The notes beneath the pieces were generated by a model, which had not been told where the DNA came from, ran no database searches, and saw nothing but the letters and a program-made list of their open reading frames with translations. A stretch of 29,373 bases of DNA, taken from contig CABQLM010000019.1 in assembly GCA_902465105.1 (NCBI GenBank), positions 1 to 29,373 of the forward strand. The letters run 5' to 3'. The stretch comes from an uncultured Collinsella sp. Its GTDB lineage: Bacteria > Actinomycetota > Coriobacteriia > Coriobacteriales > Coriobacteriaceae. Numbering within the stretch: position 1 is the stretch's first letter; each line of letters starts with the position of its first letter. This document shows positions 20,660 to 26,208 of this stretch, one piece after another. The translations under genes were made by a program, and so were the position numbers.

Positions 20660-22960
20660 ATGGTCAAGCTGTACGAGGACGGTATCTACCTGCGCGGCGG
20701 CAGCGAGGTTGTGCCTGCGGCCGAGGCTGCCGAGCGCGGTATTACGCAGACGCCCGAGGATGCCAAGCGCGGCACCATCGCGTATTCGATTCTCCAGGCA
20801 CACAATACGTCCGGAGATCCCGAGGCGCTCAAGATTCGCTTCGACGCCATGGCGAGCCACGACATCACCTTTGTCGGCATCATCCAGACGGCTCGTGCCT
20901 CGGGCATGGAGCAGTTCCCGCTGCCCTACGTGCTCACCAACTGCCATAACTCGCTGTGCGCCGTGGGCGGCACCATCAACGAGGACGACCACGTCTTTGG
21001 CCTTTCCGCGGCTAAGAAGTACGGCGGCATCTTCGTTCCGCCGCACATCGCCGTCATTCACTCCTTTATGCGCGAGAACTTCGCCGGTTGCGGCAAGATG
21101 ATCCTGGGCTCCGACTCGCACACCCGCTACGGTGCCCTGGGCACCATGGCTGTGGGCGAGGGCGGCGGCGAGCTGGCCAAGCAGCTGCTGCGCGACACCT
21201 ACGATGTCGCCTATCCCGGCGTCGTGGCCATCTACCTCACGGGCGCCCCGCGCCCCGGCGTCGGCCCGCACGATGTGGCGCTCGCCATCATCCGCGCCGT
21301 CTTTGCCAAGGGCTACGTCAAGAACAAGGTCATGGAGTTTGTGGGCCCCGGCATCGCGAGCATGACGACCGACTACCGCAACGGCGTCGACGTCATGACC
21401 ACCGAGACCACCTGCCTTTCCTCCATTTGGGCAACTGACGAGGACACGCACGCGTTCCTGGCCATGCACGGCCGCGGCGACGACTACCGCGAGCTCAAGC
21501 CCGCCGATGTCGCCTACTACGACGGCTGCGTCGAGGTCGATCTGTCGAGCATCAAGCCCATGATCGCGCTGCCGTTCCATCCTTCTAACGGCTTTGAGAT
21601 CGACGAGCTCAACGAGAACCTCGAGGACATCCTTCACGAGGTGGAGCTCGAGGCCGCCAAGATCGGCGAGGGCAAGACGCACTTTAGCCTGCTTGACAAG
21701 ATCGTCGACGGCAAGCTGCACGTGCAGCAGGGCGTTATCGCCGGCTGCTCGGGCGGTAACTACGACTCCGTGGTCCAGGCTGCCCGCGTGCTCAAGGGCG
21801 CCAACACCGGCTGCGGCGAGTTCTCGCTGTCGGTCTACCCCACGAGCCAGCCCGTGGCGCTCGAGCTTACACGCCGTGGCTACATCTACGACCTCATGGA
21901 GGCCGGTGCAATCGTGCGCACGGCATTCTGCGGCCCGTGCTTTGGCGCCGGCGACACGCCCGCCAACAACGGCCTTTCGATCCGCCACACCACGCGCAAC
22001 TTCCCCAACCGCGAGGGTTCCAAGCCGGGCAACGGCCAGCTGAGTGCCGTGGCCCTGATGGACGCCCGCTCCATTGCGGCGACGGCTGCCAACGGCGGCG
22101 TCCTGACGCCGGCGACCGACCTGCCCGAGGAGACTTGGGACGAGGTCTGCGAGTACACCTTCGACGACGCGCCGTACAAAAAGCGTGTGTACTGGGGCTT
22201 TGGCAAGGCGGAGCCTGCCGACGAGCTGGTCGAGGGTCCCAACATCAAGCCGTGGCCCGCGATGGAGCCCCTCGGCGACGATATCCTGCTCAAGGTGTGC
22301 TCCAAGATTATGGACCCGGTCACCACGACCGACGAACTCATTCCCTCGGGCGAGACGAGCTCTTTCCGCTCCAACCCGCTGGGTCTGGCCGAGTTTACGC
22401 TCAGCCGCCGCGACCCGGCTTACGTGGGCCGCTCCAAGGAGGTCGACGCGGTGGAGAAGCGCCGTGTTGCCGGCGAGTCTGCGGGTGATCTGGCGGCACT
22501 CGATGCCGAGCTTTCGGGCGTGTTTGAGGCACTGGCCGGCGCGGGTGTCGCGGCCGATGCCAAGGCCACCGAGTTTGGTTCCATGATTTATGCCAAGAAG
22601 CCGGGCGACGGTTCTGCCCGCGAGCAGGCTGCGAGCTGCCAGCGCGTAATTGGCGGTCTGGCAAACATCGTCCACGAATACGCCACCAAGCGCTATCGCT
22701 CCAACGTGATGAACTGGGGTATGGTGCCCTTCCAGATGGAGGCCGAGCCCAACTTTGAGGTGGGCGACTACGTCTTTGTGCCGGGTATCCGCGCCGCGCT
22801 CGACGGCGACCTGCAGAACATCGCCGCCTATGTGGTCCGTGCCGATGGTGCGGTCGAGCAGATCGAGCTCTACATTGCCGATATGACGGCCGAGGAGCGC
22901 GCTATCGTCAAGGCCGGCTGCCTGATCAACTACAACAAGTTCAAGGCCGCTGCCGAGTAA
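20660..22960 (+). CDS. Aconitase-family hydratase
   Basis: A 766-residue protein of the aconitase superfamily. Three cysteines stand where the [4Fe-4S] ligands are expected: C363 in [10 protein letters not shown] and C424 and C427 in FCGPCFGAG. Substrate-loop motifs include [19 protein letters not shown] and [15 protein letters not shown]. The sequence belongs to the stand-alone hydratase group found in Firmicutes and Coriobacteriia (YbhJ-like) rather than to the citric-acid-cycle enzyme AcnA, so the true substrate is uncertain. The ATG at 20660 has GGGAG five bases upstream; the frame is open farther upstream, but the protein begins [11 protein letters not shown] as in homologues. No citrate synthase or isocitrate dehydrogenase is nearby. 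A large inverted repeat and then a terminator follow. Confidence 0.9.
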
Positions 22961-22975
22961 CGCGCTTAATTGTCC

Positions 22976-23049
22976 GCCCGGGACTTACCCTTTCCCGCCC
23001 GCTCACGCGCTTCGCGAGGGTCGCGTTCGGGAAAGGGTAAGTCCCGGGC
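22976..23049. repeat. Perfect 22-bp inverted repeat after the hydratase gene
   Basis: Arms at 22976-22997 and 23028-23049 are exact complements (GCCCGGGACTTACCC... inward). The 30-base loop contains GCGCTTCGCG, which can fold again. No T-run follows, so it is a stable hairpin but not a typical intrinsic terminator. It may protect the mRNA 3' end or be a mobile palindrome. Confidence 0.85.
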
Positions 23050-23102
23050 TACATTTCTGCGTTCTCGTTGGGTCTTGAGGGACGCTAAAAATAGACTTGC
23101 TT

Positions 23103-23136
23103 GAAGTCGCCTCTGTTATCGGGGCGGCTTCTTTTT
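23103..23136 (+). terminator. Intrinsic terminator of the hydratase gene
   Basis: GAAGTCGCC pairs with GGCGGCTTC (one G-U pair) and is followed by TTTTT. It lies about 140 bases past the hydratase stop. Confidence 0.75.
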
Positions 23137-23142
23137 ATCGAA

Positions 23143-23177
23143 AACCACCACAAAGGGGACAGGCACCTTTGTGGTGG
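23143..23177 (-). repeat. Inverted copy of the ACCACCACAAAGG palindrome
   Basis: This is the reverse complement of the hairpin at 18021-18059, including the loop (GGGGACAGGCACC here, GGTGCCTGTCCCC there). On the minus strand it is followed by TTTTCG. Sharing of the loop as well as the stem shows that this is a true repeated sequence. Confidence 0.85.
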
Positions 23178-23183
23178 CTCGAT

Positions 23184-23402
23184 TCGTCTCAATCTGTAAC
23201 ATCTTGGCCGCTAAAAGTGGGCTTGGTGTTACAGATTTAGATTTTCGATTTGGGTGTCTTCTGTTCGTCTCGATCTGTAACAGATAGAGCTCTATTTGCC
23301 GATTAGATGTTACAGATTGAGACAAACGGCTGCTGCCGGTCATTTCATCTTGATTTGTAACATCTGGAGCCATAAACAGTCGCTAGATGTTACAGATTGA
23401 GA
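23184..23402. repeat. Array of three palindromic units with fixed geometry
   Basis: Three units each have a left arm resembling TCTCAATCTGTAACATCT and a right arm resembling AGATGTTACAGATTGAGA. The 10-bp cores (ATCTGTAACA and complement) lie at 23192/23227, 23273/23308 and 23353/23388. The gap between the cores is 25 bases in every unit, and the units repeat every 80-81 bases. Loops differ between units, while arms are conserved. It ends about 180 bases before clpB. Confidence 0.9.
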
Positions 23403-23466
23403 TAGTAAGGGGACGAGGCCGTAGCGGGTGAGCGCACCTGCTCCCTATCTTTCAATCACTCAGAAA

Positions 23467-23502
23467 ATCTTATATATAGAGACTTAGATTTATGTATAAG
23501 AT
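23467..23502. promoter_or_regulatory. A/T-rich dyad in the clpB promoter region
   Basis: Twelve-base arms ATCTTATATATA (23467-23478) and TATGTATAAGAT (23491-23502) are complementary with one mismatch. The segment is the most A/T-rich nearby and holds TATAAG, so the clpB promoter probably lies here. The dyad does not match CIRCE, HAIR or CtsR sites known to me. Confidence 0.45.
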
Positions 23503-23541
23503 CGTACAAAGCTGGCAACAATACTTCTCGAACAACGTGAA

Positions 23542-23559
23542 GCCGCCCCGTAGGGCGGC
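23542..23559 (+). promoter_or_regulatory. Leader hairpin of clpB
   Basis: GCCGCCC and GGGCGGC pair perfectly around a 4-base loop in the 5' untranslated region, nine bases before the strong binding site AGAGGTGAT. It might influence translation, for example with temperature. Confidence 0.45.
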
Positions 23560-23580
23560 CACCCCAAGAGAGGTGATTCC

Positions 23581-26208
<2,628 letters not shown>

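Follow-up and report, generated by a model that had tools for sequence, protein, structure and literature searches.

Phased arrays of inverted repeats between genes in a clade of Collinsella: candidate docking sites for a DNA-binding protein

Introduction

Three long inverted repeats follow one another at nearly constant intervals ahead of a clpB gene in a contig of an uncultured Collinsella sp., which raises the question of what kind of element they form and what it may do. The original prediction, made from the window (the whole stretch of 29,373 nucleotides that was analyzed), described three palindromic units and named three options, namely protein-binding sites, structured RNAs and a REP-type mobile palindrome. 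The three units are confirmed as members of a large family, whose spread, geometry, variation and genomic places bear on each of these options.

The Array Upstream of clpB

The units of the window (Table 1) start 81 and then 80 bases apart, and in each of them TCTGTAACA (with one base changed in unit 3) opposes TGTTACAGA over exactly 25 bases, within the general form TCTCRATCTGTAACA, 25 bases, TGTTACAGATYGAGA, from which units 1 and 3 deviate by one or two bases. The arm common to all units is shorter than the 19 bases first proposed, namely 15 bases of the TCTCRATCTGTAACA type (with two changes in unit 3), and the pairing that the arms had been said to keep for the most part reaches out to 19 bases in unit 3 only (84%), while in unit 1 two of the 15 positions are mismatched. 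Between the end of the array and the start codon of the downstream gene, which we take to be clpB, following the name given in the original prediction, lie 178 bases, and the core of unit 3 starts 227 bases 5′ of the ATG, like the nearest unit in most array-carrying relatives.

Other inverted repeats lie close by. Directly behind the aconitase gene, positions 22976–23049 hold an inverted repeat whose 27-base arms are 93% complementary and enclose a loop of 20 bases. In the clpB leader, an AT-rich inverted repeat, ATCTTATA..TATAAGAT (23464–23502), is part of a clade-conserved block and is possibly a promoter or stress operator; the block is similar in outgroups, but both arms are not kept there.

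Table 1. Units, spacers and neighbors of the array in the window.
Feature	Position	Strand	Description
Array unit 1	23187..23241		inverted arms 23187-23201 and 23227-23241, 25-base interior, central AAAA
Outer spacer, units 1-2	23242..23267		
Array unit 2	23268..23322		inverted arms 23268-23282 and 23308-23322, 25-base interior, central ATTT
Outer spacer, units 2-3	23323..23347		
Array unit 3	23348..23402		inverted arms 23348-23362 and 23388-23402, 25-base interior, central AAA
Second, different palindromic repeat CCACCACAAAGG..CCTTTGTGGTGG	23145..23177		adjoins array; divides modules here in relatives
clpB, downstream neighbor	23581..26208	+	875 aa; matches in 42/43 genus genomes; context, outside array
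Aconitase-family gene, upstream neighbor	20660..22960	+	PF00330; context

Distribution of the Family

A genome search for the arm core, 25 bases and the opposing core, as the original prediction had proposed, gave 54 units at ≤3 mismatches in the nearest genome (G001) and no match for a reversed control pattern, hence the window units are far beyond chance. Further copies clearly exist and their arms are conserved, which sets aside the local chance duplication that had been allowed for. With one mismatch allowed, 22 of 43 Collinsella genomes are array-rich (24–60 units each), two hold one unit and 19 hold none. The 22 array-rich genomes are exactly those whose ClpB is 99% identical to that of the window (one tight clade); the other 20 genomes with a ClpB match are at 83–92% identity (in two cases across a portion of the protein), and in the remaining genome no match reached the cut-off. 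In a class-wide sample, 22 of 396 genomes match, every one of them Collinsella, and no match was found in the 356 sampled genomes of other genera (152 genera). Among the matches listed for named genome contigs (80 of at least 120 loci), all are Collinsella and many are labeled C. aerofaciens, a common human gut bacterium.

No match to the window array was found among 50,697 phage records; of 72,556 plasmid records, one matched, itself from C. aerofaciens. This “plasmid” record, NZ_OY725717.1 (L300), comprises 899,693 bases with 21 array-like places; the one place examined has ordinary sugar-uptake genes, and the record probably represents a piece of chromosome. Two viral contigs also matched, one at a clade site and the other with a lone unit, which may be a chance match. 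The outgroup genome G055 has one unit at the clpB place, within a stretch resembling that of the window, probably acquired by transfer.

Equivalent phased arrays with other arms were not found in 400 kb each of G055 (16% of the genome) and the array-free G049 (23%). An inverted repeat of G049 was considered as an equivalent and ruled out: this hairpin repeat, GGTGGCATAG..CTATGCCACC, has 13 copies in 400 kb (L251:7813, L256:483 and 11 more in L254-L265), keeps a fixed arm distance (13 cases), is conserved over its full length including the loop, is not phased in arrays and looks like an ordinary REP-like family. In G055, an 8-base word, TGTCGCAG, which resembles the arm core TGTTACAG, recurs every ~11 bases at L240:13075-13190 and L240:14980-15050, with its orientation switching within the cluster. 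Among the matches listed from titles and abstracts of the open-access literature, to which the search was confined, no description of the C. aerofaciens arrays was found, and passages from PMC8040213 and PMC7771070 do not describe them either.

Geometry and Base Pattern

The strict geometry originally described, with a 25-base gap between cores and a repeat every 80–81 bases, is exact in the window and near-universal across the family. Among distinct sequences, with no more than one mismatch allowed in each 8-base core, 379 of the 385 within-unit gaps at 24–26 bases measure 25, five measure 26 and one measures 24; the same count holds four gaps below 20, 36 at 40–42 and three at 53–55, which may be partial matches inside interiors. 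Of the 260 between-unit gaps at 37–40, 254 measure 39 or 40, and the same list also has 33 gaps at 20–24 and seven at 48–70. Neighboring units start 80 or 81 bases apart in 285 of 294 distinct pairs, the rest being 79 (six), 78, 160 and 235.

The likeness that had been noted between the interiors is real but looser than stated, and takes the form of a position pattern across 241 distinct units: two free bases come first, TAG prevails next, G/C-rich positions follow, and the center is A or T in 478 of 482 symmetrized counts. Each half-site comprises the conserved blocks TGTTACAGAT and AGA, with a weaker YCTA inside and an AT-rich WWW outside. A/T periodicity is weak at 10 bp and stronger at 7 and 17. 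The edges of the outer spacer, scored for A or T on the same strand, are alike in 176 of 294 cases, unlike in 93 and occupied by another base in 25, and position d = 28 (d being counted from the center) is complementary across the outer spacer in 80 of 255 cases, fewer than the 121 expected, an expectation that depends on row orientation. Both signals hint at a coupling of neighbors, and both are inflated by related sequences.

Pairing and Constraint

An inverted repeat invites the explanation that its arms pair in transcripts or extruded DNA (structured RNA or cruciform) and act in transcription or mRNA stability. The 15-base arms are perfect or near-perfect, and, as single strands, all three units of the window fold better than shuffled sequences (z −7.3, −4.9 and −4.7), which is expected, as any inverted repeat folds so. 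The covariation in the arms that the original prediction proposed to look for was assessed over 440–458 distinct units and is absent at the two most variable arm positions (C in about half of the arms, T in the others), where pairing would require the arms to match: at d = 23, 235 of 458 pairs are Watson-Crick against 221 expected and 141 are mismatched against 149, and at d = 28, the corresponding counts are 216 of 458 against 207 and 202 against 208. Paired changes are slightly above shuffles at the nearly invariant positions d = 22 and d = 25–27 (z 2.7–6.5), an excess that rests on ~1–3 sequences of 440 each. At most of the positions tested, self-complementarity of the interiors falls below that of shuffled sequences (d = 1, z −14; d = 5, z −8), the arrays use all gene orientations, and among Rfam families none came near threshold, with four weak matches in window positions 22000–24500 (the best scoring 17.6 bits, where the cut-off is 37). 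Since the variable arm positions do not covary and the interiors are anti-self-complementary, hairpin DNA or RNA is disfavored, the structured-RNA option of the original prediction with it, and we consider this explanation very improbable.

Conservation is concentrated in the arms. In 861 orthologue-like unit pairs, per-site change is 0.030 in the arm core, 0.139 in the outer arm, 0.173 in the AT-rich edge, 0.185 in the interior and 0.300 in the outer spacer; the contrast between arm and spacer is somewhat inflated, as the pairs were picked by interior and spacer similarity and the units detected by arm pattern (≤4 mismatches in 18), which favors conserved arms. The cores change about ten times less than the outer spacers, and hence the arms are probably under constraint. 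Positions d = 14–17 and d = 25–27 are nearly invariant, variation is free at positions 23, 24 and 28, and the A/T bases of the center are retained. The suggestion of selection for the palindrome is better put as selection on each arm and on the spacing.

At the clpB locus (66 pairs, 12 sequences), divergence is 0.050 in the arms, 0.147 in the interior and 0.166 at fourfold sites of clpB, so that the interiors lie near the synonymous rate, and it is 0.077 in the 154 bases before the ATG and 0.378 in the 40 bases adjoining the array (ungapped, by position). At the gene for release factor RF3 (prfC), L210 and L212 are 0.007 apart in prfC but have different nearest units; array alleles there are off the gene tree, and therefore the arrays recombine between strains, which blurs the rate estimates.

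Genomic Places and Neighboring Genes

Arrays lie between genes at about 20–25 places. When grouped by flank similarity, 237 arrays (a redundant set) form 25 site clusters, some of which merge adjacent arrays of duplicated modules. At least two different array sequences are held by 18 of the 25, which therefore recur across strains or copies, and a single array sequence by the other seven. None of the 25 site-cluster representatives overlaps a called gene, the calls being those of a simple codon-based script that missed at least one gene, and their gene context is tandem in 11, divergent in six, convergent in five and unclassified in three. The neighbors include glutamate synthase, Nramp, PTS and glycosidase genes with LacI regulators, DeoR, RF3, DJ-1, GmrSD, an EF-Tu-family protein, glycogen phosphorylase and others, and the tabulation of neighboring genes that had been called for yielded, in the flanks scanned, a diverse set without a common function. 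Because all gene orientations are used and the scanned flanking genes are diverse, a single promoter- or terminator-type role does not fit. In L297, L298 and L160, modules of PTS, family 1 glycosidase and LacI genes, ~5 kb each, terminate in an array. Along the chromosome of G015, 15 of 17 loci lie ≤700 kb from dnaA (58% of the chromosome), the loci cluster, and the two chromosome arms are unequal; the bias toward dnaA is suggestive only.

Two sites illustrate how arrays vary in place. The nearest unit starts 226–227 bases before the ATG of clpB in 16 of 17 unit-carrying clade genomes and 244 in one; four of 21 readable clade genomes have no unit within 700 bases, and one further genome is cut by a contig end. 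The RF3 site holds at least two units in 11 of 21 clade genomes and is empty in the other 10, and the last unit found begins 187–195 bases before the ATG in ten genomes and 275 in L211, where a further unit with a 26-base gap escaped the search pattern. This polymorphic presence at both sites implies that single arrays are dispensable. Units are gained or lost whole, as in L180, which is without unit 2 of the window at the orthologous place. The aconitase-clpB locus carries up to two arrays, the third entry in G041 being a single array that a run of N interrupts.

The nearly fixed distance to the clpB and prfC start codons, the palindromic form of the site, and the sugar-uptake and regulator genes among several neighbors would all suit operators through which a transcription regulator acts on neighboring genes, i.e., a dispersed regulon. 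However, five of the 22 classifiable site clusters are convergent, so that the array lies 3′ of both genes, the scanned neighbors have no function in common, and multiple sites of ~61 bp are unusual for a simple repressor; a regulon of this kind is hence quite unlikely.

Mobility and Module Boundaries

Dozens of intergenic copies per genome, presence/absence polymorphism and local duplication of arrays (together with the adjoining repeat at clpB, and with sugar-uptake modules) are also what would be expected of a REP/BIME- or MITE-type family that was multiplied by a transposase, either Y1/RAYT or a DDE enzyme for which the arms would serve as terminal repeats, and is now mostly immobile. Y1 transposase matches occur in 37 of 43 Collinsella genomes, including 22 of 22 array-rich against 13 of 19 array-free ones, an association that favors a mobile origin, though confounded by kinship; their presence in those 13 speaks against one. 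Of the Y1 search suggested at the outset, the outcome was that the genes are there but no arm (two mismatches allowed) lies beside them in 10 loci examined, six longer stretches and four from the search, of 85 listed rows. Moreover, 359 of 361 distinct interiors are private to one site cluster and two occur at more than one, the variable arm positions do not covary, and the arms remain conserved in place. Stray arms are rare as well, since in G040 63 of 65 exact arms have another within ~120 bases and only two are far from another, 1.4 kb from the next exact arm. The REP-type option of the original prediction is disfavored by the site-private interiors and the Y1 findings, and we judge a mobile origin unlikely.

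IS110 and IS3 elements were considered as makers of the arrays, as they lie near some of them, and were rejected, the stretches examined showing no arms at the element edges. At L157:4240-5720, an IS3-like element whose first protein has two HTH is inserted in the second palindromic repeat, adjoining an array.

That second palindromic repeat (CCACCACAAAGG..CCTTTGTGGTGG around GGACAGGCA) divides small cassettes and arrays between aconitase and clpB in L272-L291. The cassettes encode two protein families of ~190–224 aa, and two members scanned had no Pfam match. At several sites elsewhere the repeat is likewise found close to arrays, and the array-poor G055 and G049 contain its core word.

Gene modules are found between arrays at the aconitase-clpB locus and in the PTS/glycosidase cluster, and G040 is without one module that arrays bound in G001 and G015 (by gene sizes), which would agree with the arrays being recombination or module-boundary sites that let gene cassettes swap between them. 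At the clpB locus, however, it is the second palindromic repeat, more than the array, that bounds the cassettes, and at the two loci where cassettes were sought no recombinase was linked to them, so there is little reason to expect that such swapping explains the arrays.

A Proposed Nucleoprotein Array

The arrays share one architecture, are limited to a clade, recur at intergenic places, conserve arms and spacing, and show no covariation at the most variable arm positions. The best explanation, to which we assign a probability of roughly 0.6, is that the units are double-stranded, phased binding sites for a putative sequence-specific protein, which would assemble on them into a regular nucleoprotein array. 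This reading is favored because the conserved half-sites vary without covarying, the inner gap and the period are nearly invariant, and the spacers are freer. Among the three options of the original prediction, protein-binding sites thus survive best, while the other two have lost ground.

In the proposed arrangement, each unit would be occupied by two copies of the putative protein on double-stranded DNA, each reading a half-site of ~20–24 bp (TGTTACAGATYGAGAYWWW), and the two copies would face each other across the rigid 25-bp interior with its A/T tract at the dyad. Neighboring units would stack every 80–81 bp into a regular protein-DNA complex, probably wrapped or polymerized, with a dimer of long half-sites in each unit and a looser contact between units. 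We infer that a protein binds, that neighbors cooperate, and that the role would be in chromosome structuring or insulation rather than in the control of one regulon, the structural or insulating role being favored over a regulon because arrays lie behind, before and between genes of many kinds. More tentatively, and with considerable doubt, the arrays may belong to a dedicated C. aerofaciens nucleoprotein system: a protein specific to the clade would assemble on the inverted pairs, helically phased at 80 bp, in roughly twenty fixed places between genes, and would act in the manner of insulators or chromosome-folding anchors.

No evident candidate for the binder was seen among 49 protein entries scanned near arrays (four of them entered twice), and no second full-scoring ParB/Noc-type protein tracks the arrays. 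HTH_ParB has a weak second match in nine array-rich genomes and in G055, and a stronger second match in G041 is another protein; the second-match protein was dropped as a binder for its nuclease-like character (stretches of G015, G048, G055 and G041), the weak match being presumably a DUF1016/PDDEXK-type nuclease. If the proposed reading is true, regular multi-unit docking arrays that hold their spacing to the base but leave the spacer sequence mostly free would amount to an unusual chromatin-like device, and even if they prove ordinary, the arrays are highly polymorphic strain markers.

Comparison With Known Systems

Known systems were compared by their defining features, and REP/BIME, MIRU, CRISPR and chromosome-organizing sites each share one or two traits with the arrays. 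REP/BIME elements with RAYT (Y1) likewise have many intergenic palindromic copies, alternating orientation in small arrays and strain polymorphism, whereas the Collinsella arrays lack covariation at variable arm positions, have rigid 25/80–81 bp phasing and interiors private to each site cluster, and their arms are absent beside the Y1 genes checked. The MIRU/VNTR loci of mycobacteria resemble them in tandem units of ~80 bp, a few dozen intergenic loci and copy number changes by whole units, but the Collinsella units are inverted pairs in which mainly the arms are shared, while spacers differ between units and sites.

With CRISPR, the arrays have in common constant short repeats with regular variable spacers. 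In contrast to CRISPR, their repeats alternate in orientation, they form many tiny arrays, their spacers, which show a pattern of W/S bases, diverge in place, and the whole window array matches no phage record; a cas family was not found among the same 49 nearby protein entries. The original judgment that the array is not CRISPR-like is therefore shared here, on the grounds of inverted repeats and of spacers that diverge in place.

The sites of Noc, SlmA and MatP are single and 13–20 bp long. Together with the BIMEs bound by gyrase or IHF, they offer the parallel of palindromic protein sites scattered over the chromosome, binding to the Collinsella arrays being predicted. Unlike the Noc, SlmA and MatP sites, those of Collinsella are multi-unit and phased, with units of ~61 bp, and belong to one species complex.
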